A stretch of 64,000 bases of DNA, taken from Flavobacterium ardleyense (GTDB lineage: Bacteria; Bacteroidota; Bacteroidia; Flavobacteriales; Flavobacteriaceae). The stretch lies in the NCBI RefSeq assembly GCF_033547075.1, contig NZ_CP137891.1, forward strand, positions 2,232,001 through 2,296,000, written 5' to 3'. Within the stretch, counting starts at the first letter, position 1; every line of letters starts with the position of its first letter. Made by a program: the position numbers and the translations under genes. The notes below the pieces were generated by a model. It was not told the DNA's origin, did no database searches, and was given only the letters and a program-made list of their open reading frames with translations. Shown in pieces: positions 5,836 through 52,606 of the stretch.

Positions 5836-6162
5836 CGCCTATGGTATCTTGGCAGTCGCCAAAAAACGGCAACTCAACAAAGTCAATTTGGTACAGGTAA
5901 GGGCAGGTAATGCAAAAAAGTGATGGAAAACACTCAAAAACTCTCGATTATTTTACTCCATAAAAAAAGAGGACTTTAAATCCTCTCGATCCCGATCGCT
6001 ATCGGGACTCATAACTCTTTTACGACAACTCCATAGGGATGGAATCTCAACCGGTTCTCTCGATAATAATCGGGACAAGCTGTTCAATAAAGGCTTCATT
6101 GCTTCGCCAGGTCGGATACGGCCTCGGGTGTTGGCTTTTCAAGCCAAACGAAGCCTTTGCTG
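5836..6162 (+). mobile_element. Truncated right end of the IS91-like element
   Basis: The region matches the last part of the IS in the array: the 3' end of the transposase frame (TATCTTGGCAGTCGCCAAAA), the GAGGACTTTAAATCCTC hairpin, the CCATAGGGATGGAATCTCAA block and the 58-bp palindromic end. Everything upstream is missing. A CCCGATCGCTATCGGG palindrome and another short palindrome-like insertion interrupt it. It is the oldest-looking copy and closes the array on the left. Confidence 0.85.
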
Positions 6163-6168
6163 TTAGTG
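6082..6168 (+). repeat. attC-like end of IS remnant, interrupted (family IS58)
   Basis: R boxes are GTTCAAT and GTTAGTG. The arms AAAGGCTTCATTG and AACGAAGCCTTTG match those of the intact IS ends. About 29 bases (CTTCGCCAGGTCGGATACGG onwards) are inserted in the left arm, so it is 87 bp instead of 58. Confidence 0.75.
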
Positions 6169-6966
6169 GTTGTCGCTTATTTCAATCTTAGGGTTTAGAA
6201 TGTGTCTTCGGTCTGGATTGTTTCCCGTTTCTTTAAATAATATATCGGTAACGTTTTCCAATAGTAGTGCTTCTTTTAATCTTGGAGAAATATATGTTCT
6301 GCTAGAAAATATTGGTAAAGAGAATAAATCCAAATCTTTGTCAAAATTATCTTTTAAAACAATTTTTTCTGCTCGCCAACTTACTCCAAATAAATCTTTT
6401 TCTTGAATAGTTTGATTGATAAATAATTTGTCATTTGGGTGGTTTTTATAAAGATTATTTATTTCTGCCGAGATTAAATGATTAAATTTTTTAACGGCGT
6501 ATAAATTTGAAATAGATTTGATTTTTAAATCAATAACTTTTTCATTTTTCGTATATGTTATTTCACTTTTGGAAAAATCGATGAAATCGTGATAATCTGA
6601 AATGTCTTTGCAATCGAAATTGAACCAATGATAATTATATCTAACAAGCTTTTTGGAAAACAGAGTTTTTTCCTTTCGATAGACTTCTGCTTGAATAAAC
6701 TCGTGACTTGGTAGTTTATGTTTTTGAAGTATAGTTTTGACTCTGTCATTAACAATAAAATCTTGTAAAGAATGAACGAAATCATTTATTGAGTTAAACT
6801 CTTTTTCATCGTACAGTTTAATCCAAACTGGTGGCTTCTCAGAAGGAAATTTTTTATGTTCAGTTATGTAATCTCTATAACTATGAATATTATAAGAAAG
6901 ATCATAACATTCATCCATAATTTCTCCGGAAGATGAATCATTTACAATTAGGATTTCATATTTCAT
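6163..6966 (-). CDS. Cassette protein, possibly immunity-like
   Basis: The 267-residue soluble protein has no signal peptide. Its C-terminal part contains FSLPIFSSRTYISPRLKEALLLENVTDILF, reminiscent of the tail of polymorphic-toxin immunity families such as Imm11/Imm43 (S-x-RLKEAL-x(4)-TG-x-x-F); this is recall, not a search. The start ATG at 6966 (MKYEIL) is preferred because the frame further upstream reads into the attC core at 6997. The stop codon TAA is formed by the R box itself (CACTAAC). It is the last cassette of the array. Flanks GTTAGTGGTTGTCGC and GCGATAACCACTAAC are complementary except one base. Confidence 0.75.
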   Translation of the reverse strand: MKYEILIVNDSSSGEIMDECYDLSYNIHSYRDYITEHKKFPSEKPPVWIKLYDEKEFNSINDFVHSLQDFIVNDRVKTILQKHKLPSHEFIQAEVYRKEKTLFSKKLVRYNYHWFNFDCKDISDYHDFIDFSKSEITYTKNEKVIDLKIKSISNLYAVKKFNHLISAEINNLYKNHPNDKLFINQTIQEKDLFGVSWRAEKIVLKDNFDKDLDLFSLPIFSSRTYISPRLKEALLLENVTDILFKETGNNPDRRHILNPKIEISDNH

Positions 6967-6996
6967 AAGATGTTTCGTTTTCTGCGTTGCGATAAC

Positions 6997-7132
6997 CACT
7001 AACGGTCTCATGCTTTGCCAGGTTTGGGACTGAATTAAGATTAATTATGCGATTAAACACGAATTTTCCAAGCACAAGACCCACTTTAAATTTAAGCCTA
7101 GAACCCAAATCTCGCAAAACATCGTGTTAGGC
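6997..7132 (-). repeat. attC-like site, family III
   Basis: Boundaries are CACTAAC and GTTAGGC. The arms CTTTGCCAGGTTTGGGACT and AACCCAAATCTCGCAAAAC form an imperfect stem around an AT-rich centre. By the duplicated-cassette test this site belongs to the gene on its right (7139-7927). It recurs almost unchanged at 20331-20466. Confidence 0.8.
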
Positions 7133-7138
7133 GAAGAT

Positions 7139-7927
7139 TTATTCTTCAGCAAAACCGTAATTTTCTGTAGTTTTTAATATCCATTTAATTTTAGAATATT
7201 TTTTCCGAAGAGTTTTTTCTAAACATTCGTTTTTATCTTTACGATAATTGGTTAAGTCAACAAAAATTGTTTTTGAATATGGAAGTTTGCCAATTTCATT
7301 TTCGATATTATCACAATGACTGTCTAAAAATTTCACATATAAAGGTTTTGTCGATTTTACTATATAAATTTCATCATTAAAATATCTTTGAGAATTTTCT
7401 ATTGCATCTTCAAGTTTGGTTTCATCTTTAAATATTTTCGCAATTATTTCATAAGTTTTAATAATTAGTTTTCCTTCTTCTGACTTTTCATTTGGAGAAT
7501 AAAATACCTTTTTTGACTTTATCTTCTGTGAATTTTCAGTTTCTAAATATATGTTTATTCCATCTTCTGGAGGGAATTCAGAAGTTCTTAGTTTAGATAA
7601 TCGCACCAAAATACTTTCAAGTTCTTGGAATTTAGAATATTCAGGTTTAACTTCAAATTTGATTTCTTTGGGTAAAAATTTTCTAATACTTTCTAAATCA
7701 GTTGAGTCAATAAATTTCCAAGTGTTTTTCGAAATGGAATCTGCTAATGAATATTCGTATGGAATTGAAGCAATAATTTTTTTTGATTTATTGTCCAACT
7801 CTATTTTAAAACTATTGTAAAAAGAAGGAGAAGAAATAAATATAATCTTTTCTGTTTCAAATTTTTTTTTATCCGCACAACTAATAATTATAAATAACAA
7901 TAAAATAATAAATGCTAATTTTTTCAT
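7139..7927 (-). CDS. Cassette lipoprotein of unknown function
   Basis: The 262-residue protein starts with a lipoprotein signal (MKKLAFIILLLFIIISCADKK) and should be membrane-anchored in the envelope. The body is Lys/Glu/Ser-rich with no recognised domain. A second copy of this cassette, with the same attC on its left, lies at 20473-21261 and is broken by a stop codon. This copy is intact. The start follows the complementary cassette end GCCTAAC by 36 bases, with a purine-rich leader and no strong Shine-Dalgarno, as is usual in this phylum. Confidence 0.8.
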   Translation of the reverse strand: MKKLAFIILLLFIIISCADKKKFETEKIIFISSPSFYNSFKIELDNKSKKIIASIPYEYSLADSISKNTWKFIDSTDLESIRKFLPKEIKFEVKPEYSKFQELESILVRLSKLRTSEFPPEDGINIYLETENSQKIKSKKVFYSPNEKSEEGKLIIKTYEIIAKIFKDETKLEDAIENSQRYFNDEIYIVKSTKPLYVKFLDSHCDNIENEIGKLPYSKTIFVDLTNYRKDKNECLEKTLRKKYSKIKWILKTTENYGFAEE

Positions 7928-7962
7928 TAAGTTTCTGATTTTATGCGGTTTCCAAAATTTTC

Positions 7963-8093
7963 GCCTAACATTTTACGGCTTTGCGAGGTTGCGAACTTCG
8001 TGACCGAGATTTTTCGGCTAAAATAAAATTTCTTGCGAGAGATAAACGTGAATTTACCACATAATTCGCCATTTATGCAAACCGCTGTTGAAC
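7963..8093 (-). repeat. attC-like site, family I variant
   Basis: Boundaries are GCCTAAC and GTTGAAC; the right box is now the left end of IS copy 1. Family I arms are GGCTTTGCGAGGTTGCGAA and TTCGCCATTTATGCAAACC. The left arm here is of the TTTGCGAGGTTGCG subtype and the right arm of the GCCATTTATGC subtype, so the two arms look mosaic. Confidence 0.75.
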
Positions 8094-8265
8094 TAAACCT
8101 ACGGTAGTGTATTGCGGAAAATTGCAGTCCTTTGTAAAACTAATTAAAATTTATTTATAATGATAAAAAAAAGAAGATGAGTTAGTTGGGTCACCAACAA
8201 TCATCAATCGAGCAGTTGCAGAAGTACCTGGATTTGGGGAATTACTTCACCGATACAAACGGTCT

Positions 8266-9177
8266 ATGTCAATTTTAGGCAGGAGCGAAAGCACGTATCG
8301 AAATTATGCCCAGCACGTTGCCGCTATGGCATTGCATTTCGGAAAAATCCCCACCGAACTTGATGTAGAGCAAGTACAAGAATACTTATACATCTTGCAA
8401 AAGCGTTCCAAAACGCCTTCCTTAACCTACTTCAAGCACACCGTTTACGGACTTCGATTTATGCTAAAATCGGAAGGTTTGCCTTATGAGTTTTTGCATT
8501 TACCATCGATTAAACACGACAAAAAACTTCCAACTGTTCTGAGCAAAGAGGAAGTGTGGCGGTTGCTTAAAAGCTGTCATCTGCTCAAACACAAAGTCCT
8601 TATTGGATTGCTGTATGGTTGTGGACTGCGTTGTATGGAAGTTCGAAGTCTGCGCTTGCAAGATCTTGATTTTGATCGAATGCAACTCAAAGTCGTTCAA
8701 GGCAAAGGCAAAAAAGATCGATATGTTCCCTTATCCATCCATTTAATTCGAGGTTTAAAATCCTATATCCAAGCCGAAAAACCAAAGATATATTTGTTCA
8801 ACGGACAACCGGCAGGCCGTGCCGGTGGTGATTTTGACTCTCGATATTCGCAGCGCGGTGTGCAACCTGCCCCGTTACAAATTAAATATGAGTAAAAAAT
8901 TGAATTCAAAAATTTATAACGGGGTGCGGCGGTCAAGCAAGCTTGCAAAGTTGCTGGAATTACCAAGGATGTTTGTGTGCACACACTGCGCCACACTTTT
9001 GCCACGCATTTGCTAGAAGATGGACTCGATATTATCAGTTTAAAGAATCTTTTGGGACACGAGAATATTGAGACGACGATGGAATATTTGCACATTGCAC
9101 AACTCGATACTCAGAAAGCCTTTAGTCCTCTCGATACTTTATTTGCAAAATACAGTTCCAATGGAAGTGCAGATTGA
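8266..9177 (+). pseudogene. IS tyrosine recombinase, interrupted (copy 1)
   Basis: The frame is intact up to residue 200 (SQRGVQ). There a palindromic insertion at about 8866-8929 replaces four bases and brings in stop codons. The C-terminal catalytic part (VHTLRHTFATHLL, LGHENIETTMEYLH) resumes afterwards to 9177, so the His-x-x-Arg and Tyr nucleophile are split from the first catalytic Arg. Confidence 0.9.
8869..8924. mobile_element. Small palindromic insertion (CCCCGTTA type)
   Basis: The element is bounded by CCCCGTTACAAATT and AATTTATAACGGGG. The same insertion point is used in IS copies 2 and 7. No coding capacity. It is probably a non-autonomous relative of the GIY-YIG element nearby. 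Confidence 0.75.
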
Positions 9178-9381
9178 TCGCAGCCGATGTGAAGTTGCCG
9201 ATGTGCTCGAAAAATTAGGTACTGGTATTGAAAATTTAGGATTAAATACTTGGCAGTTGCGAACGCTATCAGCGCTGAAAATGTGCAGAACCGCCGCTTT
9301 GGGCGGACATATCGATGCGTGTGAAGATTGTGGAACAGTCAAAATAAGTTACAACTCCTGCCGCAACCGACATCGCCTTCA

Positions 9382-9429
9382 CCCCGTTACAAATTAATAA
9401 ACAAGAATAACAAAAAATTTGTAACGGGG
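9382..9429. mobile_element. Small palindromic insertion, 48 bp
   Basis: Inverted ends CCCCGTTACAAATTAAT and AAATTTGTAACGGGG enclose about 16 bases. It lies in the zinc-ribbon codons of the transposase. Identical in position and nearly in sequence to 12395-12442 and 40978-41025. Confidence 0.75.
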
Positions 9430-9663
9430 CAGGGTGTCAAGGCAAAAATCGAGACGATTGGATACAAGCTCGGATGAGTGAACTTTTGCCTGTACCGTAT
9501 TTTCACGTGGTGTTTACATTGCCTGACAGTATTAATTCCTTGGCGATACAGCAACCGAAATTAGTTTATGATATTCTTTTTGAATCGGCTTGGGCAACTT
9601 TAAAAACCTTTGGCAAAAAGAATGCGTTGCAGACTGGTATGATTGCAGTTTTGCACACGCTTG

Positions 9664-9959
9664 CCCCGTTAGAAATCTAACTGATTTTTTAATCTATTTT
9701 TTAAATATCTTCTTCCCATTCCACTTTTTAGATACTTTTCTCTAGCAATAGCATCTTGTTTATTAAATGAAACTTCATAATACAAAATTTTCCACGGCAT
9801 CTTTTTGCTCGTCGTTAGTGTCCTACCAGAATTATGCTGTATAATTCTTTCATCTAAGTTTGAAGTATATCCTATATACCAAGAATTATCCATTTGTGAA
9901 ATTAATACATAAACATAATATTTTTCCATTTTGTAAAAGTATAAAAATTTCTAACGGGG
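9664..9959. mobile_element. GIY-YIG nuclease element, 296 bp (copy 1)
   Basis: Terminal inverted repeats CCCCGTTAGAAAT and ATTTCTAACGGGG enclose a single minus-strand nuclease gene. It is inserted in the transposase at the codons for LHTWGQN, replacing about five bases. The same element lies at the same place in IS copy 7 (41260-41555). The termini match those of the small palindromes in the same IS copies apart from one base. Confidence 0.8.
9669..9929 (-). CDS. GIY-YIG nuclease (URI-type, single domain)
   Basis: The 86-residue protein is a minimal GIY-YIG endonuclease domain: YYVYVLI (4-10), WYIGYT (17-22, the YIG half), the conserved Arg in NLDERIIQHNSG (about 28), and a Glu in the helix AREKYLKSG. 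Such single-domain proteins resemble the UvrC/homing-nuclease catalytic domain and cut DNA. Its stop codon lies inside the left terminal repeat, so gene and repeat are one unit. It probably drives spread of the element that carries it. The protein is identical to the one at 41265-41525. Confidence 0.85.
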   Translation of the reverse strand: MEKYYVYVLISQMDNSWYIGYTSNLDERIIQHNSGRTLTTSKKMPWKILYYEVSFNKQDAIAREKYLKSGMGRRYLKNRLKNQLDF

Positions 9960-10487
9960 TGCGGGACAGAATTTATCCTTGCATCCGCACCTGCATTGTA
10001 TTGTTCCGGGTGGAGGCGTCGATAAAAATGGTTCTTGGGTTAATATTCGAAATGATGGTAAATTTCTTTTCCCTGTAAAGGCATTATCGAAAGTGTACCG
10101 AGCCAAATTTTGCGAGGCATTAAAAGCTAAAAATCCTGATGATTATACCCAAGTTAAAAAGGGATTATGGGCAAAACCTTGGGTTTGCTAGAGAAACCAA
10201 AGCAGTAGCAATCAGAAAATGCCAATGTTGTAAAGTGGGAAATTTGCATACCATTCTGATTTTTGACACCCGCGGTCCGCCTTTATGGTATCTTGGCAGT
10301 AGCCAAAAAACGGCAACTCAACAAAGTTAATTTGGTACGGGTAAGGGCAGGTATGCAACAAAGTGAAGAGAAACACTCAAAAACTCTCGATTATATTACC
10401 CCATAAAAAAAGAGGACTTCTAATCCTCTTGATATCCTCATAACTCTTTTACGATAACTCCATAGGGATGGAATCTCAACCGGTTCC

Positions 10488-10545
10488 GTTCAACAAAGGC
10501 TTCATTGTTGGCTTTTCAAGCCCAACGAAGCCTTAGCTGTTAGGC
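10488..10545 (+). repeat. attC-like right end of IS copy 1 (family IS58)
   Basis: Boundaries are GTTCAAC and GTTAGGC. The arms AAAGGCTTCATTGTTGGCTT and AAGCCCAACGAAGCCTT form a near-perfect hairpin with a 3-base loop. The left spacer is 1 base and the right one 4, the reverse of the cassette attC sites. Confidence 0.8.
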
Positions 10546-10890
10546 ACAGGCTTTTATTTTTCCAGTATCTTTAATTTCCATTAATATCTTTTCAAGTTCA
10601 GCAGTTATTGTTTTTTGAGATTTTGAGCTCTTTGTTCGCAATGGTTTCTCCCAATTTTTATTTTCAACCACTTTGATTATAAATTCTCCGTCATTATTCG
10701 AAGCATCTCCATACCAACCTAAATCAATTACCAAGTTTGAATATTTAAATACAATTTGAAGTAAATCCTCTAATAAATATAAGTCACTTTTCTCTTCGGA
10801 ATATTCGGTTGCAGGATCGTAAGTGAAAAATTCATTTTTATTAATCTTGCAGCCACTTGGGATTTTTAATCTCTGCAATTCTACTTTCAT
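10540..10890 (-). CDS. Cassette protein of unknown function
   Basis: The 116-residue soluble protein has no signal or membrane segment. It has the mixed alpha/beta look of small immunity-like proteins, with the stretch LVIDLGWYGDASNNDGEFIIKVV and a Lys-rich helical C-terminus. I do not recognise the family. The stop codon TAA is part of the attC R box (GCCTAAC read leftward). Cassette ends GTTAGGCACAGGCT and AGCTTGTGCCTAAC are complementary with one mismatch. It lies between IS copies 1 and 2, its attC having been replaced by the IS end. Confidence 0.7.
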   Translation of the reverse strand: MKVELQRLKIPSGCKINKNEFFTYDPATEYSEEKSDLYLLEDLLQIVFKYSNLVIDLGWYGDASNNDGEFIIKVVENKNWEKPLRTKSSKSQKTITAELEKILMEIKDTGKIKACA

Positions 10891-10960
10891 ATTTTTTTCG
10901 TTTAATGAACCTGTTAATTTTGATATCTATCATTCTTCCAACAGCGTGTATTCAGCTTGT

Positions 10961-11092
10961 GCCTAACGTCTCGTGGCTTGCAGAAGTGGCGAACTTCGTA
11001 ACCGAGATTTTTCCGCTAAGATAAAAATCTCTTGCGAAAGATAAACGTCAATTTACCACATATTTCGCCATTTTTGCAAACCGCTGTTGAAC
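10961..11092 (-). repeat. attC-like site, family I
   Basis: Boundaries are GCCTAAC and GTTGAAC. Arms: GGCTTGCAGAAGTGGCGAA and TTCGCCATTTTTGCAAACC. The right box is supplied by IS copy 2. Confidence 0.8.
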
Positions 11093-11659
11093 TAAACCTT
11101 CGGTAGTGTATTGCGGAAAATTTGAGTCCTTTGTAAGACTAATTAAAATTTATTTATAATGATAAAAAAAAGAAGATGAGTTAGTTGGGTCACCAACAAT
11201 CATCAATCGAGCAGTTGCAGAAGTACCTGGATTTGGGGAATTACTTCACCGATACAAACGGTCTATGTCAATTTTAGGCAGGAGCGAAAGTACGTATCGG
11301 AATTATGCGCAACATGTTGCCGCTATGGCATTGCATTTCGGAAAAATCCCCACCGAACTTGATGTAGAGCAAGTACAAGAATACTTATACATCCTGCAAA
11401 AGCGTTCCAAAACGCCTTCCTTAACCTACTTCAAGCACACCGTTTACGGACTTCGATTTATGCTAAAATCGGAAGGTTTGCCTTATGAGTTTTTGCATTT
11501 ACCATCGATTAAACACGACAAAAAACTTCCAACTGTTCTGAGCAAAGAGGAAGTGTGGCGGTTGCTTAAAAGCTGTCATCTGCTCAAACACAAAGTCCTT
11601 ATTGGATTGCTGTATGGTTGTGGACTGCGTTGTATGGAAGTTCGAAGTCTGCGCTTGCA

Positions 11660-11677
11660 ACCCCGATAGCTATCGGG
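11660..11677. repeat. CCCCGATAGCTATCGGGG palindrome
   Basis: A perfect 18-base palindrome absent from the intact IS copies. The related CCCGATCGCTATCGGG occurs in the IS tails at about 5988 and 13459. It is a REP-like mobile palindrome common in this type of genome. Confidence 0.7.
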
Positions 11678-11881
11678 GTTGATTTTGATCGAATGCAACT
11701 CAAAGTCGTTCAAGGCAAAGGCAAAAAAGATCGATATGTTCCCTTATCCATCCATTTAATTCGAGGTTTAAAATCCTATATCCAAGCCGAAAAACCAAAG
11801 ATATATTTGTTCAACGGACAACCGGCAGGCCGTGCCGGTGGTGATTTTGACTCTCGATATTCGCAGCGCGGTGTGCAACCT

Positions 11882-11937
11882 GCCCCGTTACAAATTAAAT
11901 ATGAGTAAAAAATTGAATTCAAAAATTTGTAACGGGG
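11882..11937. mobile_element. Small palindromic insertion (CCCCGTTA type)
   Basis: Same element and same insertion point as 8869-8924, with a perfect AATTTGTAACGGGG right end. Confidence 0.75.
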
Positions 11938-12173
11938 TGCGGCGGTCAAGCAAGCTTGCAAAGTTGCTGGAATTACCAAGGATGTTTGTGTGCACACACT
12001 GCGCCACACTTTTGCCACGCATTTGCTAGAAGATGGACTCGATATTATCAGTTTAAAGAATCTTTTGGGACACGAGAATATTGAGACGACGATGGAATAT
12101 TTGCACATTGCACAACTCGATACTCAGAAAGCCTTTAGTCCTCTCGATACTTTATTTGCAAAATACAGTTCCA

Positions 12174-13356
12174 ATGGAAGTGCAGATTGATCGCAGCCGA
12201 TGTGAAGTTGCCGATGTGCTCGAAAAATTAGGTACTGGTATTGAAAATTTAGGATTAAATACTTGGCAGTTGCGAACGCTATCAGCGCTGAAAATGTGCA
12301 GAACCGCCGCTTTGGGCGGACATATCGATGCGTGTGAAGATTGTGGAACAGTCAAAATAAGTTACAACTCCTGCCGCAACCGACATTGCCTTCACCCCGT
12401 TACAAATTAATAAACAAGAATAACAAAAAATTTGTAACGGGGCAGGGTGCCAAGGCAAAAATCGAGACGATTGGATACAAGCTCGGATGAGTGAACTTTT
12501 GCCTGTACCGTATTTTCACGTGGTGTTTACATTGCCTGACAGTATTAATTCCTTGGCGATACAGCAACCGAAATTAGTTTATGATATTCTTTTTGAATCT
12601 GCTTGGGCAACTTTAAAAACCTTTGGCAAAAAGAATGCGTTGCAGACTGGTATGATTGCAGTTTTGCATACTTGGGGACAAAATTTATCCTTGCATCCAC
12701 ACCTTCATTGTATTGTGCCCGGTGGAGGCGTGGATAAAGATGGTGGTTGGGTTAATATTAGAAGTGATGGTAAATTTCTTTTTCATGTAAAGGCACTTTC
12801 AAAAGTGTATCGAGCAAAGTTTTGCGATGTATTAAAAGCTAAAAATCCTGATGATTATACCCAAGTTAAAAAGGGATTATGGGCAAAACCTTGGGTAGTA
12901 TATGCAAAGAAACCTTTTGGCAGCGCACATTCTGTAGTAGAATATCTTGGACGATACACTCACAAAGTAGCCATTAGCAACAACCGAATCCAAGAAGTTG
13001 ATGACAAGAATGTGACTTTTAAGTACAAGGATTATCGGCAAAATGGAACTAAGAAAAAGATGGTATTATCTCACGGTGAATTTATCCGACGTTTTGCACT
13101 GCATATTCTACCAAAACGATTTGTGAAAATCAGACATTATGGTTTTTTGAGTAGCAATTGGAAACGCCAAAAGCTTCAGGATCTGCAGAAGAAAATGAAC
13201 TTTACACCAATTGCTAGAGAAACCAAAGTAGCACCAATCAGAAAATGCCAATGCTGTAAAGTGGGAAACTTGCATACCATTCTGATTTTTGACAAGAGAG
13301 GTCCGCCTGCTTGGTATCTTGGCAGTAGCCAAAAAACGGCAACCCAACAAAGTTAA
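12174..13356 (+). pseudogene. IS91-like transposase, interrupted once (copy 2)
   Basis: Only one lesion is seen: the 48-bp palindrome at 12395-12442 in the zinc-ribbon codons. After it the frame is open for 289 residues from MSELLPVPYF (12487) to the natural C-terminus, with both the HUH segment HPHLHCIV and the Y2 pair YLGRY. A truncated protein lacking the zinc ribbon could still be made. Confidence 0.85.
12395..12442. mobile_element. Small palindromic insertion, 48 bp
   Basis: Inverted ends CCCCGTTACAAATT and AATTTGTAACGGGG; same point as in IS copies 1 and 7. Confidence 0.75.
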
Positions 13357-13527
13357 TTTGGTACGGGTAAGGGCAGGTATGCAACAAAGTGAAGGGAAAC
13401 ACTCAAAAACTCTCGATTATTTTACTCCATAAAAAAAGAGGACTTCTAATCCTCTTGATCCCGATCGCTATCGGGACTGATAACTCTTTTACGATAACTC
13501 CATAGGGATGGAATCTCAACCGGTTCC

Positions 13528-13585
13528 GTTCAACAAAGGCTTCATTGTTGGCTTTTCAAGCCCAACGAATCCTTAGCTGTTGGCA
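13528..13585 (+). repeat. attC-like right end of IS copy 2 (family IS58)
   Basis: Boundaries are GTTCAAC and GTTGGCA. The right arm reads AACGAATCCTT instead of AACGAAGCCTT, one extra mismatch, as in IS copy 7. Confidence 0.8.
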
Positions 13586-13627
13586 GATCGGTTTTCTTTC
13601 CTTTTCAATTTTATTTTTATAGAAATT

Positions 13628-14020
13628 CTAAATTTTTACAGGTATTTTAAGTTCAAAGGTTTTAAATCCATTACTACTTTTATACGAAAGGAATATTTTT
13701 AATTTTCCATCTTCTAAATCTTCTTTTTTAGGTGACATTTCTATCAACAATTCATTTTCATTATTCCCTTTCAAAAATCGAATAGTTTTTCCAGATAAAT
13801 TTACATTTTTTGGATTAATATTCTCAAATTTAAATTTAGTTTGCGTTTGAATATTCGCTTCCAAATATTTATTACCCGTCAAGATTTCAAAAGTTATTTT
13901 TTCTTTTCCGTTAATAAATTCAAAATTTTCATTTGTTAATTTATTTATTTTAGTTGCGCAACTTGCTAAAATTAAAACGACAATAAAAGTTGTAATTATC
14001 TTAATCTTCAATATTTTCAT
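13628..14020 (-). CDS. Cassette lipoprotein of unknown function
   Basis: The 130-residue protein begins with a lipoprotein signal (MKILKIKIITTFIVVLILASCATK), placing it in the envelope. The remainder is beta-rich and Lys/Asn-rich, ending in an Ig-like strand pattern (LKIFLSYKSSNGFKTFELKIPVKI). No family is recognised. Unlike several neighbours, its stop is about 43 bases before the attC box, leaving a 3' tail with the shared CGGTTTTCTTT motif. Its leader carries the shared CAGTTTAGTAAACCGCAGAA motif. Confidence 0.75.
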   Translation of the reverse strand: MKILKIKIITTFIVVLILASCATKINKLTNENFEFINGKEKITFEILTGNKYLEANIQTQTKFKFENINPKNVNLSGKTIRFLKGNNENELLIEMSPKKEDLEDGKLKIFLSYKSSNGFKTFELKIPVKI

Positions 14021-14071
14021 TTTTTATAAATTAATTTAATATTCTGTTTTTCTGCGGTTTACTAAACTGTC

Positions 14072-14204
14072 TGCCAACGTTCCCGCGCTTGGCGTCAGTT
14101 GCGAACTTCGGAACTGATTATTTTCTATTAAAGATAATATTTCTTGCGAAACGTGAACGTGAATTTACCACAAAATTCGCAATTGCGCCAAACGTGTGTT
14201 GAAC
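14072..14204 (-). repeat. attC-like site, variant with GCGCTTGGCG arms
   Basis: Boundaries are TGCCAAC and GTTGAAC. Arms: CGCGCTTGGCGTCAGTTGCG and CGCAATTGCGCCAAACGTG. A distinct arm sequence, related to family II on the outer part and family I on the inner part. Confidence 0.75.
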
Positions 14205-14376
14205 TAAACCTTCGGTAGTGTATTGCGGAAAATTTGAGTCCTTTGTAAAACTAATTAAAATTTATTTACAATGATAAAAAAAAGAAGATGAGTTAGTTGG
14301 ATCACCAACAATCATCAATCGAGCAGTTGCAGAAGTACCTGGATTTGGGGAATTACTTCACCGATTCAAACGGTCT

Positions 14377-43987: not shown

Positions 43988-44094
43988 GTTCGGTTTTTTA
44001 TTTATCTATTATATTTTGTTACTTAATGTAATAACAACAACAACTTAAGTCACTTTTGTTGTAACTTTTCCATTGCTAATGAATTTCTCATTAT

Positions 44095-45477: not shown

Positions 45478-45541
45478 TGAGTTTGTAATTAAGATTAGAT
45501 TTTTTATTTTTTCGATTTTTTCTGCGTTAACTGAAACTGAC

Positions 45542-45672
45542 GGCTAACGTTTCGCGGCTTGCAGAAGTGGCGAACTTCGTGACCGATTATTTTCGGCTAA
45601 GATAAAATTTCTTGCGAAAGATAAACGTGAATTTTGCACATATTTCGCCATTTATGCAAACCGCTGTTAGCC
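45542..45672 (-). repeat. attC-like site, family I
   Basis: Boundaries are GGCTAAC and GTTAGCC; standard arms. Confidence 0.8.
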
Positions 45673-45781
45673 GTTCGGTTTTTTATTTTTCTATTAAATA
45701 TTTTGTTACTTAATTTAATAAAACCAACATCTGACGAAGCTTTTGTTGTAACTTTTCCATTGTTAATGAATTTCTCATTAT

Positions 45782-47155
45782 CTATTGCTTCACAAACTTT
45801 AGAATGGTTGAATTCCCTGAATTATCCACCAAGTTCAGTAAATAAACTCCAGAAGGTAAACTACTGCAATCAATATTATTACCTACTGCAAGTGTTCCTT
45901 CGCTAATCTTAACTCCTAGGATAGAATAGATTTGGTACTGCTGTGTTTCTTGCGTATCTATAAACAAACGATTTTGTACTGGGTTAGGGTAAAGAACTAC
46001 GTTATTTTTAGTAAAGTCTTCTGTGCCTAAAGCGCAAGTGTTAATAAGTACTGGAGAATATTGATTCACAAATGTGCCGTCTCCAAAAGTACCAAATGCA
46101 TTACTTCCCCATGAGTATAATGAACCATCCGCTTTTAAAGCAGTAGTTGAGTTATAACTTGTAGTTACCGTTTTCCAGTCACTAGAAGTGCTGATCTGAG
46201 TAGGAACAAGTAGGTCGTTTTGCGTACCATTACCTAGATTTCCCAGTATATTACGACCCCATGCCCATAAAGTACCATTTGTTTTAATAGCAAACGAAGA
46301 AAATGAATCTGCTTCTAGCATTTCCCAGTCTGTATCAGTACCTATTTGTGTAGGCCAAGGTATACTTGTTGTACTACCATTACCTAACTTACCATTAGCC
46401 CCTCCTCCCCACGCCCAGAGGGTATTATCATTCTTTATTGCTAGAAAGTAACCGTTACCTGCAACTGCATATTTCCAATCGGTATCTAACCCAATTTGAC
46501 TGGGCACTTTAACATAGGCTTGCCCTCCGACTGGATCAGCTGGTAAAAATCCGAAAGACGGACTATTTTGCCCCCAAGCCCATAGAGTTCCATCTTCTTT
46601 AACTGCTATATTTCGCGCTAAATTGCAACTAACCATTTTCCAATTTGTACTGCCATTAATTAAAACTGGAGTCGATTTATCTATAAATGTGCCATCGCCC
46701 ACAGTGGCATCTTGATTATCGCCCCAGCCCCAAAGCGTACCGTCAACTTTAATTCCAACACTATGGTCCGAACCCGCTCTGACCATTTTCCATTGACTTG
46801 AACCTATCTGCACAGGAACCAAACTATATAATGCAGTACTTCCACTACCAAGGTTTCCCTTTAAATTACTACCCCAGCTCCAAAGTGTACCATTCTCTTT
46901 GATGGCAAAACTATGCACACTTGAAGCGTTTACTTCTTTCCAATCCGTAGCACTTCCTATTTGCGTTGGTACATTTGTAGACCAAGTAGTACCATTTCCC
47001 AAAGCGCCATCATCGGCATTAAAGCCCCAACTCCATAGCGTTCCATTATTTTGAATTCCTACCACGTGTCTTTCTCCAACAGAAACTGTTTCCCAGCATT
47101 GGGCTTTGCTATTAAAAGCCGTTATTAATAATGTAATAAGTAAAATTTTTTTCAT
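45782..47155 (-). CDS. Secreted RCC1-repeat protein with T9SS sorting domain (paralogue)
   Basis: The 457-residue protein has the same architecture as 44095-45477: signal peptide (MKKILLITLLITAFNSKAQ), about seven RCC1 repeats (VGIQNNGTLWSWGFN, FAIKENGTLWSWGSN, VGIKVDGTLWGWGDN), and a T9SS domain (LYPNPVQNRLFIDT). The C-terminal domain and the 3' untranslated sequence are much more alike between the two genes than the repeats. This suggests duplication followed by diversification of the propeller, as expected for surface proteins under changing selection. Confidence 0.88.
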   Translation of the reverse strand: MKKILLITLLITAFNSKAQCWETVSVGERHVVGIQNNGTLWSWGFNADDGALGNGTTWSTNVPTQIGSATDWKEVNASSVHSFAIKENGTLWSWGSNLKGNLGSGSTALYSLVPVQIGSSQWKMVRAGSDHSVGIKVDGTLWGWGDNQDATVGDGTFIDKSTPVLINGSTNWKMVSCNLARNIAVKEDGTLWAWGQNSPSFGFLPADPVGGQAYVKVPSQIGLDTDWKYAVAGNGYFLAIKNDNTLWAWGGGANGKLGNGSTTSIPWPTQIGTDTDWEMLEADSFSSFAIKTNGTLWAWGRNILGNLGNGTQNDLLVPTQISTSSDWKTVTTSYNSTTALKADGSLYSWGSNAFGTFGDGTFVNQYSPVLINTCALGTEDFTKNNVVLYPNPVQNRLFIDTQETQQYQIYSILGVKISEGTLAVGNNIDCSSLPSGVYLLNLVDNSGNSTILKFVKQ

Positions 47156-47219
47156 TGAGTTTGTAATTAAGATTATATTTTTTATTTTTTCGATTTTTTC
47201 TGCGTTCCGTGAAACTGAC

Positions 47220-47344
47220 GGCTAACGTCTTGTCGCTTGGCGAGGTTGGGGACTTTAGAGCAGAGTATTTTCTGCCGAAAACGAAGATATGATAAAAAAC
47301 GCTAATTCCACTAAAACCCCAATCTCGCCAAACGGCTGTTACCA
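47220..47344 (-). repeat. attC-like site, family VI
   Basis: Boundaries are GGCTAAC and GTTACCA. Arms: GTCGCTTGGCGAGGTTGGGG and CCCCAATCTCGCCAAACGGC. Related to family II in the inner arm but with a different outer part. Confidence 0.8.
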
Positions 47345-47349
47345 GCTGA

Positions 47350-48018
47350 CTACTTTATCAGATTTCTTTTTTTCTCCATTTTTCTATATTTACGGATTAA
47401 ATAAATAAAAATTATTCCTAATAATATTTTAAATAAAGCATTCCAATAATTATATGGTTCTGTAAACTGTTTTAAGTTTTCGGAATCATTAATTTTAATC
47501 GATTTGAAAAAAATCTCTTTATTTTTTTGATTGTAAGATGCAACTTTGGAATAGATAAATTCATAATATATACCATCCAAATATAAAATTAAACTTTGTC
47601 CATTTTCTTCTTCTGAATTTACCTCTTTAAACGTTAATTTATAAGCTAAATAATTATTGAAAGTTATCTGAGTTGAGTCTTTAATATTCATTCCTTTTTG
47701 GGAAAAGCCTTTTAGCTGTCCAGCTATGAACTGTTTATAATTTTTTATTAATTCAATTTGGCTTTTTGGAAGATTTGGTTCAGTATCTTCATTAGTTAAA
47801 ATTTTTAATCGCATCGTGACATAGGATTCTTCTTTTGAATTTAAATAATATGTTTTTAGAATTGTTTTTATTGATTGATTAAGAGTGTCAGTTTTTACAA
47901 CATTCTCAAGTGTTTTTGGTTTGCTTGGAAATTTAATCGTAATGTTTTCATCAATCGATGTTTGACTGAAAATAATTCCCGAATATAGTAAAGTTAAAAG
48001 TGCTAATATTTTATTCAT
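47350..48018 (-). CDS. Cassette exported, membrane-anchored protein of unknown function
   Basis: The 222-residue protein has a signal peptide (MNKILALLTLLYSGIIFSQ) and a C-terminal transmembrane helix (ALFKILLGIIFIYLIRKYRKM, about 192-212) with a positively charged tail. The exported part (20-190) should thus be held at the periplasmic face of the inner membrane. It contains ITIKFPSKPKTLENV and LAYKLTFKEVN, similar in style to the secreted cassette protein at 24232-24882. Family not recognised. Confidence 0.75.
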   Translation of the reverse strand: MNKILALLTLLYSGIIFSQTSIDENITIKFPSKPKTLENVVKTDTLNQSIKTILKTYYLNSKEESYVTMRLKILTNEDTEPNLPKSQIELIKNYKQFIAGQLKGFSQKGMNIKDSTQITFNNYLAYKLTFKEVNSEEENGQSLILYLDGIYYEFIYSKVASYNQKNKEIFFKSIKINDSENLKQFTEPYNYWNALFKILLGIIFIYLIRKYRKMEKKRNLIK

Positions 48019-48055
48019 AAATTTTGATGTGTTTCAGGATTTTTTCATAGTTTGC

Positions 48056-48188
48056 TGGTAACGTCCTGGCGCTACACGAGGTTTGGGATTAAAGACGCGA
48101 GATTTTTCCATTATGCACAAATTTTCCAAGTACAAAACCATCTTTAAATTCAGCCAAATACCCAAATCTCGTGTAACGGCTGTTGAAC
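48056..48188 (-). repeat. attC-like site, family VII
   Basis: Boundaries are TGGTAAC and GTTGAAC. Arms: GCGCTACACGAGGTTTGGGA and CCCAAATCTCGTGTAACGGC. Unique arm sequence. Confidence 0.75.
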
Positions 48189-48360
48189 TAAACCTTCGGT
48201 AGTGTATTGCGGAAAATTTGAGTCCTTTGTAAAACTAATTAAAATTTATTTACAATGATAAAAAAAAGAAGATGAGTTAGTTGGATCACCAACAATCATC
48301 AATCGAGCAGTTGCAGAAGTACCTGGATTTGGGGAATTACTTCACCGATTCAAACGGTCT

Positions 48361-49212
48361 ATGTCAATTTTAGGCAGGAGCGAAAGCACGTATCGAAATT
48401 ATGCCCAGCACGTTGCCGCTATGGCATTGCATTTCGGAAAAATCCCCACCGAACTTGATGTAGAGCAAGTACAAGAATACTTATACATCCTGCAAAAGCG
48501 TTCCAAAACGCCTTCCTTAACCTATTTTAAGCATACCGTTTACGGACTTCGATTTATGCTAAAATCGGAAGGTTTACCTTATGAGTTTTTGCATTTACCA
48601 TCGATTAAACACGACAAAAAACTTCCCACCGTTCTGAGCAAAGAGGAAGTGTGGCGGTTGCTTAAAAGCTGTCATCTGCTCAAACACAAAGTTCTTATTG
48701 GACTGCTGTATGGCTGTGGACTGCGCTGTATGGAAGTTCGAAGTCTGCGCTTGCAGGATCTTGATTTTGATCGAATGCAACTCAAAGTCGTTCAAGGCAA
48801 AGGCAAAAAAGATCGATATGTTCCCTTATCCATCCATTTAATTCGAGGTTTAAAATCCTATATCCAAGCTGAAAAACCAAAGATATATTTGTTCAACGGA
48901 CAACCTGCAGGTCGTGCCGGTGGTGATTTTGACTCCCGCTATTCGCAGCGCGGTGTGCAATGGGCGGTCAAGCAAGCTTGTAAAGTTGCTGGAATTACCA
49001 AAGATGTTTGTGTCCACACACTGCGCCACACTTTTGCTACACATTTGCTAGAAGATGGACTCGATATTATCAGTTTAAAGAATCTTTTGGGGCACGAGAA
49101 TATTGAGACGACGATGGAATATTTGCACATTGCGCAGCTCGATACTCAGAAAGCCTTTAGTCCTCTCGATACTTTATTTGCTAAATGCAGTTCCAATGGA
49201 AGTGCAGATTGA
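48361..49212 (+). CDS. IS-encoded tyrosine recombinase (copy 8)
   Basis: 283 residues, identical to the copy 3 protein and catalytically complete. Confidence 0.93.
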   Translation: MSILGRSESTYRNYAQHVAAMALHFGKIPTELDVEQVQEYLYILQKRSKTPSLTYFKHTVYGLRFMLKSEGLPYEFLHLPSIKHDKKLPTVLSKEEVWRLLKSCHLLKHKVLIGLLYGCGLRCMEVRSLRLQDLDFDRMQLKVVQGKGKKDRYVPLSIHLIRGLKSYIQAEKPKIYLFNGQPAGRAGGDFDSRYSQRGVQWAVKQACKVAGITKDVCVHTLRHTFATHLLEDGLDIISLKNLLGHENIETTMEYLHIAQLDTQKAFSPLDTLFAKCSSNGSAD

Positions 49213-50326
49213 TCGCAGTCGAAGTGAAGTTGCCGATGTGCTCGAAAAGTTAGGTGCTGGTATAGAAAATTTAGGATTAAATACCTGGCAGTTGCGAACG
49301 CTCTCAGCGGTGAGAAGGTGCAGAACCGCCGCTTTGGGCGGACATATCGATGCGTGTGAAGATTGTGGAACAGTCAAAATAAGTTACAACTCCTGTCGCA
49401 ACCGACATTGTCCGAAGTGTCAAGGCAAAAATCGAGACGATTGGATACAAGCTCGGATGAGTGAACTTTTGCCAGTACCGTATTTTCACGTGGTGTTTAC
49501 ATTACCAGACAGTATTAATTCTTTGGCAATGCAGCACCCGAAATTGGTTTACGATATTCTTTTTGAATCGGCTTGGGCGACTTTAAAAACCTTTGGCAAA
49601 AAAAATACGTTGCAGACCGGTATGATTGCAGTTTTGCACACCTGGGGACAGAATTTATCCTTGCATCCGCACCTGCATTGTATTGTTCCGGGCGGTGGCG
49701 TGGATAAAAATGGTGCTTGGGTTAACATCCGAAATGACGGTAAATTTCTTTTTCCTGTAAAGGCATTATCGAAAGTGTACCGAGCCAAATTTTGCGACGC
49801 ATTAAAGGCTCGAAATCCTGATGGCTATACCAAAGTGAAAAAGGATCTATGGGCAAAACCCTGGGTAGTATTTGCCAAGAAACCTTTTGGTAGCGCGCAT
49901 TCTGTGGTAGAATATCTTGGGAGATATACTCACAAAATAGCCATTAGCAACAACCGAATCCAAGGAATTGATGACAAGAATGTGACTTTTAAGTACAAGG
50001 ATTATCGGCAAAATGGAACTAAGAAACAGATGGTATTGTCTCACGGTGAATTTATCCGACGTTTTGCAATGCATATTCTACCAAAACGATTTGTAAAGAT
50101 CAGACATTATGGTTTTTTGAGTAGCAATTGGAAACGCCAAAAGCTTCAGGATCTGCAGAAGAAAATGAACTTTACACCAATTGCTAGAGAAACCAAAGCA
50201 GTAGCAATCAGAAAATGCCAATGTTGTAAAGTGGGAAACTTGCATACCATTCTGATTTTTGACAAGAGAGGTCCGCCTGCTTGGTATCTTGGCAGTGGCC
50301 AAAAAACGGCAGCCCAACAAAGTTAA
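49196..50326 (+). CDS. IS91-family Y2/HUH transposase (copy 8)
   Basis: 376 residues, identical to the copy 3 transposase, with all motifs present. Confidence 0.93.
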   Translation: MEVQIDRSRSEVADVLEKLGAGIENLGLNTWQLRTLSAVRRCRTAALGGHIDACEDCGTVKISYNSCRNRHCPKCQGKNRDDWIQARMSELLPVPYFHVVFTLPDSINSLAMQHPKLVYDILFESAWATLKTFGKKNTLQTGMIAVLHTWGQNLSLHPHLHCIVPGGGVDKNGAWVNIRNDGKFLFPVKALSKVYRAKFCDALKARNPDGYTKVKKDLWAKPWVVFAKKPFGSAHSVVEYLGRYTHKIAISNNRIQGIDDKNVTFKYKDYRQNGTKKQMVLSHGEFIRRFAMHILPKRFVKIRHYGFLSSNWKRQKLQDLQKKMNFTPIARETKAVAIRKCQCCKVGNLHTILIFDKRGPPAWYLGSGQKTAAQQS

Positions 50327-50483
50327 TTTGGTACGGGTAAGGGCAGGTATGCACCAAAGTGAAGAGAAACACTCCAAAACTCTCGATTATTTTACTCCAT
50401 AAAAAAAGAGGACTACTAATCCTCTCGATATCCTCATAACTCTTTTACGATAACTCCATAGGGATGGAATCTCAACCGGTTCC

Positions 50484-50541
50484 GTTCAACAAAGGCTTCA
50501 TTGTTGGCTTTTCAAGCCCAACGAAGCCTTAGCTGTTACCA
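50484..50541 (+). repeat. attC-like right end of IS copy 8 (family IS58)
   Basis: Boundaries are GTTCAAC and GTTACCA. This site and the following cassette reappear together at 63643-64000. Confidence 0.8.
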
Positions 50542-50550
50542 GCAGTAATT

Positions 50551-51000
50551 TTAGCTTTCGACTTTTTTATAACTTATTATTTGATTATTTAAAATCAATA
50601 CTGTTTTTAAATTTTCGGAATTCAAATCTTCAGATTCTCCAAGTTTTTGTAAAAGTAGATTTGTCATACTGTCAAAACTGTTTTCTTGTGAATGATTTGC
50701 TAAAATTGCTTTTTTATACTCAATTTCAATAATATCGCAATCAAATCCTTCTTCCTCAGCATCACTTAAGTTTTCATAAGCAAATACAACTCCCGGATCA
50801 AAAGTTGCTGGTTTTGAGACAAGCGTATTTTGAGTTTTATCAAGATTAGAATTTATTTCTGCTCCTAAAAATTTCCCATCTTTCTCTATCTTATCAAAAT
50901 GATTTGTGTAATGATAGGCTATTCCATTTTCCACAATTTCTAATTCTGTGAAGGTTGGCACTTCTTTTTTTAAATACTCTAAAAGTTCTTCTGTAGACAT
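50551..51000 (-). CDS. Cassette protein of unknown function
   Basis: The 149-residue soluble acidic protein has no signal peptide. It has an N-terminal helix (TEELLEYLKKEVPTF), then ENGIAYHYTNHFDKIEKDGKFLG, whose His-Tyr-Thr and following Gly faintly recall nucleotide-handling ART/RES-type folds, then a very acidic centre. No firm family. A second copy starts at the window's right edge (63710-64000), behind the same IS-type attC. It is the protein cassette closest to the recombinase, separated only by an N2 cassette. Confidence 0.75.
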   Translation of the reverse strand: MSTEELLEYLKKEVPTFTELEIVENGIAYHYTNHFDKIEKDGKFLGAEINSNLDKTQNTLVSKPATFDPGVVFAYENLSDAEEEGFDCDIIEIEYKKAILANHSQENSFDSMTNLLLQKLGESEDLNSENLKTVLILNNQIISYKKVES

Positions 51001-51017
51001 AAGTTCTGTATTATTGC

Positions 51018-51092
51018 TGGTAACGGTTGACGATATATACAGTTGCCTGTGTTGCGCCTGCGGCAGGCAATTGGATGTATCGTGTGTTGTGG
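51018..51092 (-). repeat. attC-like site, short (75 bp)
   Basis: Boundaries are TGGTAAC and GTTGTGG. Same arms as 39124-39198. Confidence 0.8.
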
Positions 51093-51460
51093 GCTGTTAT
51101 CTTGTCTGCTAAGATAAGAATAACAGGAACAGTTGGGCAGGGAGAAAGTTAGATAAACGATTTTAAAGTATGATTCCTATCCTACTGGGGGATAGGCAGC
51201 GTTTTTTTAAATCTCAGCTTAAAATTAGCTGCATCTTGGCGTTCAAACAGTTGTAAGAAAAAAACTATTGACTTTTCGTTTTTTTTCTTATAACTTAGCC
51301 AAGCCTTTAAGCGTCTTCGCTTTGAAAATACATTTTCAGCAAATCTTCTTGCAAGGCTTGACCAAAAATTAAACGTATTTTATTTTCCGTTTTAATCGCC
51401 AGAATTCCACTTTCAATTTTAAGCCTTTTATCAAGTTTCGAGCGCTCAATTGCCCACAAC
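51087..51460 (-). repeat. N2 non-coding cassette body (copy c), first cassette of the array
   Basis: Ends are GTTGTGGGCTGTTATC and CTCAATTGCCCACAAC. Hairpins: CTATCCTACTGGGGGATAG; AGTTGTAAGAAAAAAA with TTTTTTTCTTATAACT; CAAGCCTT with AAGGCTTG. A 71-codon minus-strand frame (51307-51522) starts at a TTG inside the attI-like site and reads into this cassette. It is not conserved in the other N2 copies and is probably fortuitous. Confidence 0.7.
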
Positions 51461-51540
51461 TTGTTTATATGTCTAACAACGTCAGTTATATCAACCCAAA
51501 TCTGGCTGTATATGTCTGACAAACGTCAGTGTTATTTACA
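51454..51540 (-). other. Candidate attI site
   Basis: It lies between the first cassette and the recombinase stop codon. Two direct repeats, TATATGTCTAACAACGTCAG (51466-51485) and TATATGTCTGACAAACGTCA (51509-51528, then G), are spaced 43 bases apart. Each contains an inverted CTGAC-x4-GTCAG or close variant (minus strand). The cassette joint is CCACAAC|TTG. This mirrors known attI sites, which have a core plus direct-repeat integrase-binding sites and no attC-like long palindrome. Inference from position and repeats only. Confidence 0.6.
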
Positions 51541-51562
51541 AGAGCAATATAGATAATTTTTT

Positions 51563-52606
51563 TTATAAATCGTCAAATGGACTTTTTATTTGCTGAATAC
51601 TTTTCGTGCTCACGTGGGTGTAAATTTCGGTCGTCTTGCTGCTGTTGTGACCCAAAAGTTCCTGAATATATCTTAAATCGGTTCCACTCTCCAAAAGATG
51701 GGTCGCGTAACTATGCCGTAGCCAATGTAACGTAACTGGCTTGGTTATAAATGCTTTTTTTAATGCTTGTTTTAAGACACTCTGCAAACTTTTTTCGCTA
51801 TAGCGCGTTCCTGCTATACTTCCTTCAAATAAAAAGTTTTGCGGTTTGAAGACTAAATAATAATCTCGAAGCATTTCCAATATTTTTGGACTTAGCGGAA
51901 CAATTCGGTCTTTATTGCCCTTTGAGTTTTTAAGCATAACGATATTTCTTTTGCTATCGATATGCACTGGCTTTAATGCCAAAAGTTCGCCGCAACGCAA
52001 ACCACAACTGTAAATCATACTAAGCATCATTTTGTGTTTAATATTTGTATGTGCAGTCAATATAACTTTTACCTCTTCTTTGCTCAATACATTTGGTAAT
52101 AGCTTCGATCTTTTTGGTCGGTGTATTTTGTCAATTTCAATTTTTGTTTCTAAAATAGTTCCAAAGTATAGTCTAACTGAATTCACAATTTGGTTCTGAT
52201 ACGAGGCCGAAAACTTATTCTTCAGTATAAAATCATTGTTGTAAATTATCACATCTTCATTCGTAATTTCTGAAATAGGCTTGTTCCTATAAAAAACAAA
52301 AAATGATCGCAGTGCATCGCAATAAGTCTTTATCGTATTCTCACTATACCGTTTGGAAGCTAAGTGCTGTTTGAATTTGGAAATTTGTTCAATGCCTTCC
52401 AATGACGGAATGGTTTCTTGATGCTGAATAATCTTAAAGATATTTCGATTTTCGACTGTATCGGGAAGATGCCAAACTGCTTTTCCTGCACTCCAACGAG
52501 CGTCGTCAAATTCCTTGATTCGCGCAATCAGTCTTTTGTCCTTTTCAAAAAAAACTGCAATTCGGCGCTCACCTCGATGGGTTATTAATTTGGCAGAAAA
52601 TTCCAT
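51563..52606 (-). CDS. Array tyrosine recombinase (integrase), Xer-like
   Basis: The 347-residue protein is the likely cassette integrase. A Bacteroidota-type N-terminal extension (1-60, RRIAVFFEKDKRLIARIKEF, WHLPDTVENR) comes first. A SAM-like DNA-binding domain (about 65-160) follows, then the catalytic domain with Arg204 (SCGLRCGEL), Lys229 (NSKGNKDR), His294-x-x-Arg297 (LHWLRHSYATHLL), His320 (LLGHNSSKTT) and nucleophile Tyr329. The roughly 35-residue insert between the Lys and His-x-x-Arg motifs that defines IntI integron integrases is absent, so it is not IntI. It points towards the array with its stop 23 bases from the candidate attI. Classical intI genes point away from their cassettes. 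It is about a third identical by eye to the IS recombinase. Confidence 0.88.
   Translation of the reverse strand: MEFSAKLITHRGERRIAVFFEKDKRLIARIKEFDDARWSAGKAVWHLPDTVENRNIFKIIQHQETIPSLEGIEQISKFKQHLASKRYSENTIKTYCDALRSFFVFYRNKPISEITNEDVIIYNNDFILKNKFSASYQNQIVNSVRLYFGTILETKIEIDKIHRPKRSKLLPNVLSKEEVKVILTAHTNIKHKMMLSMIYSCGLRCGELLALKPVHIDSKRNIVMLKNSKGNKDRIVPLSPKILEMLRDYYLVFKPQNFLFEGSIAGTRYSEKSLQSVLKQALKKAFITKPVTLHWLRHSYATHLLESGTDLRYIQELLGHNSSKTTEIYTHVSTKSIQQIKSPFDDL

Follow-up and report, generated by a model that had tools for sequence, protein, structure and literature searches.

A chromosomal array of Flavobacterium ardleyense, in which 46 palindromic sites alternate with 46 units, is likely a set of gene cassettes that are captured, excised and shuffled at hairpin-forming sites by a tyrosine recombinase related to IntI and lacking its I2 domain. 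The system would thus be integron-like and non-IntI. The array was studied in a window of 64,000 nt (NZ_CP137891.1:2,232,001-2,296,000) of the complete 3.19-Mb chromosome, and positions below are those of the window unless a contig or locus is named. As read from the sequences, the proposal draws on the cassette anatomy, the matching ends of the units, compensatory pairing and fixed mismatches within the sites, an attI-like region, and the linkage and orientation of sites and recombinases across Bacteroidota. Other sequences used for comparison are designated by L numbers, and R1 is a covariance model of the window sites.

Cassettes, matched ends and foldable sites

The sites span 6086-51088 and fall into 34 long (117-128 bp), three short (64-67 bp) and nine insertion sequence (IS)-type sites (50-79 bp), all of which are located in Table 1. 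Every site ends in GTT on the right and 45 of the 46 end in AAC on the left, the exception being AAT at 6086. Forty-five units lie between sites, and the first cassette (51086-51460) brings the number to 46. A blind arm-pairing scan of the window made 50 calls versus a mean of 1.8 in five mononucleotide shuffles. These calls comprise 42 of the 46 sites, seven palindromes inside a cassette without an open reading frame (ORF) and a duplicated site at 63647, while the sites at 6086, 7967, 13532 and 42475 were missed. The site listing and the scan against shuffles bear out the alternation of palindromes and units that was described in the first-pass annotation of this DNA.

The two ends of a unit match each other at 12.4 of 15 bases on average in the window, compared with 7.0 for the ends of different units; the mean is taken over 46 listed intervals, one of which (51086-63649) holds no cassette and matches at 6 of 15. 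For 108 units in relatives, the corresponding values are 12.9 and 7.5. Matching ends, which the first-pass annotation had regarded as a hallmark of the cassettes, are therefore confirmed, whereas the start GTTRRRY that it had assigned to every non-IS unit is found in 4 of 38 such units and in 8 of 8 IS units. The consensus start of non-IS cassettes is instead GTT[AG]NNNNNNA, whose A at position 11 lies opposite a C or G of the unit's other end. Read along the sense strand of the cassettes, 37 of 37 non-IS window units have A here, opposed by C in 30 and by G in 7; among relatives, A occupies 118 of 121 starts and the opposing base is C in 109 of 128 ends. By sequence, it is position 11, and not the length of the end match, that distinguishes the cassettes.

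The listed non-IS genes of at least 90 aa are all on the minus strand, as is the recombinase gene. The stretches 39127-39566 and 51021-51460 are 98% copies of each other with a core at both boundaries, and they include the site that lies 3' on the sense strand of the cassette. An IS91-type stretch of approximately 2357 bp is likewise present in five copies, which are 100% identical, lie in five different places and end at GTT. Because the copy boundaries fall at cores, the mobile unit is a gene, or an ORF-less stretch, together with its own 3' site, as in integrons. One cassette of 363-365 bp, with an internal palindrome and no ORF of at least 90 aa, is present in 11 copies (17185-17548, 28832-29194, 30717-31080 and 34941-38687) and might encode an RNA.

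In an alignment of 20 window sites (A1), both sides change in 18 of 22 stem pairs, and the covariation is 0.466 versus 0.125 when shuffled and at most 0.106 when slid. The fifth stem pair is T.G in 17 of the 20 sites, and an A.C mismatch further in on the inner stem is present in 19. Among 121 distinct model matches from the window and relatives, the fifth pair is T.G in 71, and the inner mismatch is A/C in 100, G/T in 18 and A/A in 3; the G/T cases follow the pattern expected of reverse readings and may be such. The sites are foldable palindromes with AAC/GTT cores, as integrons require. In canonical attC, two or three single partnerless bases on one arm are described as setting the strand used (PMC2727003), and extra bulged bases were seen by eye in sites adjoining Bacteroidota IntI genes (L229 and L235). 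No such extrahelical bases on one arm were found in the paired stem of A1, the stem being bulge-free apart from one offset column, where 2 of 20 rows carry a base.

The recombinase and the attI-like region

The recombinase gene has an identical second copy at 2296725-2297765 of the contig, starting 725 bp past the window end. R204, K229, H294, R297, H320 and Y329, which we take to be catalytic from the tyrosine recombinase family, are invariant in 29 aligned sequences. The catalytic GLR and HxLRH are separated by 92 residues in the window protein and by 91-92 residues in 31 of 32 array-type proteins (the other, truncated, has 80), versus 133 in 21 of 21 IntI proteins; the insert of about 41 residues present in all 21 of the latter, which marks the I2 domain, is absent. 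An enzyme with all catalytic residues and without the IntI segment had been described at first pass, and both parts agree with these data. The protein matches the Phage_integrase family. In NCBIfam it scores 212 bits with XerA (cut-off 220) and 207.1 bits with the integron integrase profile TIGR02249 (cut-off 265), and it stays under the cut-offs of the XerC and XerD profiles as well. The predicted structure (mean pLDDT 84.6, pTM 0.58) has no extra helix at the I2 position, and its nearest solved folds are the integron IntI4 and archaeal XerA, about equally. No Pfam domain exceeded its cut-off in residues 1-70, a part that the fold comparison barely covered.

A careful tree was built from 60 of the 80 proteins, with no phage integrases sampled. 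IntI forms one clade (support 100/99) and the array proteins lie outside it, while IntI, array and related proteins together part from XerA, XerC and XerD at 100/99. A group that joins the array proteins to three related ones reaches only 80/85; L035 branches off below it, and the placement of the IS91 recombinases near IntI is weakly supported. Within this sampling, the sequences make the recombinase a sister lineage of IntI. The tree, which the first-pass annotation had proposed, gives no grouping with unrelated phage integrases, none of which were sampled; its idea of a non-IntI enzyme holds, and its term "Xer-like" is better replaced by "sister of IntI", as the protein lies on the IntI side of the split from Xer.

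An attI-like region, recognized by its anatomy, lies beside the recombinase gene. In relatives, the recombinase stop is followed by a TATATTTG-like box, arms around an ACCC..GGGT centre, T.TA.A..AGTT and the first cassette, in this order. Thirty-seven loci were inspected and 29 aligned, all of which share T.TA.A..AGTT at the start of the first cassette; the eight more distant loci left out of the alignment still end in AGTT. Of the aligned cells, 94.8% agree with the best pairing of the arms and 92% with an alternative, mutually exclusive one, and the covariation of the region is 0.48 versus 0.18 when shuffled. Between close relatives the letters of the arms differ and the pairing is kept, so that what is recognized may be a fold and not one fixed binding sequence. 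The arms may act as a switch in a leader RNA or as an insertion site that folds. The Bacteroidota -7 consensus is TAnnTTTG, and a candidate -7 box of an array promoter is located just past the recombinase stop (Table 1). Two Flavo-1 RNAs (RF01705) were found at 52666-52783 and 55035-55113, one of them just upstream of the recombinase gene.

Linkage in other genomes and proposed mechanism

We searched 80 named loci, which had been fetched via their recombinases, with R1 at a cut-off of E<=0.001. The loci are labelled Flavobacterium, Lutibacter, Pelobium, Algoriphagus, Chitinophaga-, Saprospiraceae- and Bacteroidales-type and others, with one Azoarcus. Of 131 matches, 128 are downstream on the recombinase strand, two are upstream (L157 and L193) and the last is a reverse reading of an already counted site; the density is 0.47 per kb downstream versus 0.004 per kb upstream of the recombinase. 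Forty-one of the 80 loci have at least one match, and 33 of the other 39 have less than 1.5 kb of downstream sequence. In the flanks of further relatives, R1 at E<=0.1 found matches in 16 of 20 downstream flanks versus 1 of 20 upstream flanks taken as control, and at E<=0.01 it gave matches in 5 of 10 additional flanks, which belong to more distant relatives. The covariance-model search suggested at first pass thus finds relatives of the recombinase adjoining similar arrays, and this linkage, together with the tree position outside IntI, supports the idea of an independent or deeply diverged cassette system in Bacteroidota.

At E<=1e-6, 38 of 60 sampled genomes of the class, counting the present one, have R1 matches. 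The own genome has 40 R1 matches, 34 inside the array and six solo elsewhere; cores are intact in some of the solo sites only, and no matching cassette start was found at the one that was read. Two Chryseobacterium plasmids carry both the recombinase and sites. A Chryseobacterium plasmid array (L101) contains five palindromes of 140-152 bp of other sequence (TTTTCCCAAC GRCCAGCTCGG...) at about 17184, 19279, 21660, 24729 and 31814, along with an IS110 element and a group II intron. On plasmid pHH1107 (L103, 6640-6870), an I2-less recombinase (TnpF), a TATATTTG box, an inverted repeat and GTTATGTGCCA precede tet(X), which occupies the position of a first cassette with no matching cassette end seen there; XerD and IS91 genes near tetX have been published for Chryseobacterium (PMC11194056). 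On a Flagellimonas plasmid (L104, 5923-6756), a dihydrofolate-reductase-family gene with matching cassette ends lies between two sites and adjoins erm(F) and an I2-less recombinase.

Cores and matched ends as in integrons would also be seen if this were a true integron array whose IntI is elsewhere or lost, with the recombinase as a bystander, and among 61 genomes sampled across the phylum, 21 have an IntI over its cut-off. The own genome, however, has no IntI at E<=1e-55, and sites are linked to the I2-less recombinase in the 41 loci described above. Moreover, among 12 IntI loci and R388, only L231 has matches under E 0.01 (two, E<1e-6), and the canonical sites in L229 and L235 carry the bulged bases that the array sites lack. 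We therefore consider a bystander recombinase very improbable. The two R1 sites of L231 (3436-6107), a canonical-IntI genome, are several kb upstream of IntI and bulge-free by eye.

In the mechanism that we propose, a single strand of a site would fold into a hairpin, which the recombinase would cut at G^TT. In the excised circle the two outer arms would pair again, and the circle would enter at the attI-like core TATAnACnAG^TT. Transcription of the first cassettes is predicted to start from the -7-like box past the recombinase stop, and the fixed mismatches would mark strand polarity, replacing the bulged bases of attC.

Several observations weigh against this proposal. Recombination is deduced from its traces in the sequence, namely duplicated cassettes that break at cores, and the junction of a large duplication at 63644 (see below) is not at a core. 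Six loci with at least 1.5 kb downstream (L165, L174, L197, L214, L222 and L228) have no match at E<=0.001, L222 having one at 0.0026, and the flanks of five distant relatives (L142, L144, L145, L146 and L148) have none at E<=0.01. The window box is TATATTGC versus TATATTTG in most relatives, and the attI-like region has 12 doubly changed pairs versus 11.1 when shuffled, a number reached in 204 of 500 shuffles. Seven units of canonical IntI arrays match at 10-13 of 15 bases at their own ends; long matched ends alone are for this reason not special, and we dropped them as a diagnostic. Furthermore, a double-strand reaction is possible for a recombinase without I2, and the paired changes in the sites could also stem from double-stranded dyad symmetry.

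The last two points belong to an alternative in which the recombinase acts on double-stranded palindromes in a Xer/dif-like manner and hairpin formation follows incidentally from dyad symmetry. This alternative stands in view of published work according to which cassette capture requires I2, the segment that confers single-strand recombination (PMC7790495), and it is in line with the missing I2 insert, the missing bulged bases and the predicted model, which solved XerA structures fit about as well as IntI does. Nevertheless, the stem letters vary while the pairing holds, the polar mismatches are conserved, and the outer arms are cassette-specific and complementary within a cassette, a property that binding to a fixed double-stranded site would not call for. 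On balance we regard a double-strand reaction as unlikely and prefer recombination at folded sites.

Eight IS91-type units in the array read on the plus strand. Besides a Y2 transposase, each encodes its own tyrosine recombinase, which is 37% identical to the array recombinase over the aligned part. By their sequences, the units appear to use the same GTT core as the cassettes. Small palindromic inserts (CCCCGTTACAAATT...AATTTGTAACGGGG and others) are present in these units at 8868-8932, 9380-9430 and 9658-9962, and more at 11655-11682, 11883-11937 and 12395-12442. A copy outside the array (L132, 1795-4146) interrupts TGCTAAC|GAAGC, an AAC core without a palindrome, and adjoins the reading frame of an ArsR-like regulator (named by eye). 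A tandem duplication of 13.16 kb (50485-63643, repeated from 63644 past the window end, with 0 mismatches and 4 gap openings in 13,161 columns) starts inside an IS end and comprises the recombinase, the first cassette and approximately 11 kb of other chromosomal sequence. We considered whether its junction arose by secondary-site recombination at a core; the native sequence found where the second copy ends showed otherwise.

Given the eight units, an additional remnant and the start of the duplication, IS91-type rolling-circle transposition might be thought to have built the array, with the palindromes as its end hairpins. This seems extremely unlikely to us: other arrays were found through recombinase linkage (IS91-type units were counted in the window array), the IS units run opposite to the other units at the same cores, and the copy in L132 sits at a plain core, with no need for the IS91 target words.

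Table 1. Positions of the features in the window
Feature	Position	Strand	Remark
Whole cassette array	6086..51088	-	
First cassette	51086..51460	-	adjoins attI-like region; copied at 98% identity in 39192-39566; lacks an ORF of 90 aa
I2-less tyrosine recombinase	51563..52606	-	347 aa; co-directional with cassettes
attI-like region	51461..51562	-	repeats with inverted-repeat arms; ends TATAAACAAG before core G at 51460
Candidate array promoter -7 box	51544..51551	-	TATATTGC; just past recombinase stop
Long sites	7001..7128, 7967..8089, 10965..11088, 14076..14200, 17063..17187, 20335..20462, 21301..21423	-	
Long sites	22062..22189, 22621..22737, 23345..23467, 24097..24219, 24923..25045, 25713..25835, 28710..28834	-	
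Long sites	29192..29314, 29890..30012, 30595..30719, 31078..31200, 31739..31861, 34819..34943, 35301..35425	-	
Long sites	35785..35909, 36267..36391, 36751..36875, 37234..37358, 37717..37841, 38201..38325, 38685..38805	-	
Long sites	39564..39685, 43137..43253, 43861..43983, 45546..45668, 47224..47340, 48060..48184	-	
Short sites	17546..17609, 39128..39194	-	
Short site	51022..51088	-	of first cassette
IS-type site	6086..6164	+	left end, after truncated IS copy
IS-type sites	10492..10541, 13532..13581, 16504..16553, 19913..19962, 28139..28188, 34165..34214, 42475..42524, 50488..50537	+	
IS91-type units	14198..16506, 17607..19915, 25833..28141, 31859..34167	+	
IS91-type units	11086..13534, 39683..42477	+	interrupted
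IS91-type unit	8087..10494	+	interrupted by small inserts
IS91-type unit	48182..50490	+	tyrosine recombinase 48361-49212; Y2 transposase 49103-50326
Imm11 immunity-protein family gene	6163..7011	-	
RCC1 repeats with secretion sorting domain	44095..45477	-	
RCC1 repeats with secretion sorting domain	45782..47155	-	

Comparison with known systems

Judged from its sequence, the array works like an integron in every anatomical respect tested. A cassette is a gene with a 3' site, AAC..GTT cores come with matched ends, the insertion point lies between the recombinase and the first cassette, and the pairing of the sites is conserved over their letters. In contrast to integrons, the recombinase has no I2, falls outside the IntI clade and runs in the same direction as the cassettes; fixed mismatches take the place of bulged extrahelical bases; and the attI-like region, with covarying arms, lies past the recombinase stop. 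We do not class the array as an integron because I2, a TIGR02249 score over cut-off, a place in the IntI clade and extrahelical bases were each looked for and not found.

The closest described relative, not named in the first-pass annotation, is the rAID (recombinase-associated acquired interbacterial defence) of Bacteroidales, a known immunity-gene array for which the original paper is said to be Ross et al. 2019. By definition, rAID combines a tyrosine recombinase with short genes in one orientation and with conserved motifs between them (PMC12247911), all of which are present in the window array as well, and one cargo gene is Imm11; the array might thus simply be a flavobacterial rAID. The two also share an insert-less recombinase and matched ends, as seen in a rAID-like Parabacteroides plasmid locus (L106), where a 44.6%-identical recombinase is followed by type VI secretion system (T6SS)-immunity and SMI1/KNR4 genes and the ends match over positions 2-9 or more in 7 of 7 units picked by eye. 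However, the units of L106 start with ATT, not GTT, the sites of rAID look shorter, and R1 finds no match at E<=1 in this locus, nor in L103 and L105. Whereas the cargo of rAID is T6SS immunity, the 20 cargo proteins tested of 23 in the array include one of an immunity family (Imm11) and two with RCC1 repeats and a sorting domain, and 17 had no match or a weak one; a cargo of orphan immunity genes was not found. For this reason rAID does not define the system. An array that is nothing other than rAID is rather unlikely in our view, and rAID is likely a branch of the same system.

Two further groups come close. In an "integron-like" subgroup of tyrosine recombinases, the insertion in the catalytic domain is not fully conserved (PMC8138268), although the parts of that source available to us describe no cassette arrays or sites for the insertion-less members. 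IS91 elements with a tyrosine recombinase end at the same GTT cores in the array, and they differ in their Y2 transposase, opposite direction and other hairpin sequence. Besides rAID, the open-licence literature searched gave no report of such arrays run by an I2-less recombinase.

I2 and extrahelical bases are viewed as co-evolved parts whose origin poses a chicken-and-egg paradox (PMC4792948), and integron specialists regret the absence of intermediates (PMC7790495). An I2-less sister recombinase with folding sites free of extrahelical bases makes the question of integron origin directly testable. Standard integron surveys search for IntI and attC. For Bacteroidetes, IntegronFinder is reported to have found only integrases without cassettes in version 1 and one complete integron, in Salinibacter ruber, in version 2.0 (PMC9024848). 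Given the sites in 38 of 60 genomes of the class, a large pool of gene exchange may have escaped counting, and this pool may be connected with interbacterial defence (rAID) and with resistance genes of flavobacteria. More tentatively, and with a little less than even confidence, we suggest that the array represents a second cassette-capture system throughout Bacteroidota, a sister of integrons that recombines folded sites without I2 and extrahelical bases and has rAID and the flavobacterial recombinase neighbourhoods of tet(X) and erm(F) among its branches. If so, this sister system would supply the intermediate that has been missing from accounts of how integrons arose.

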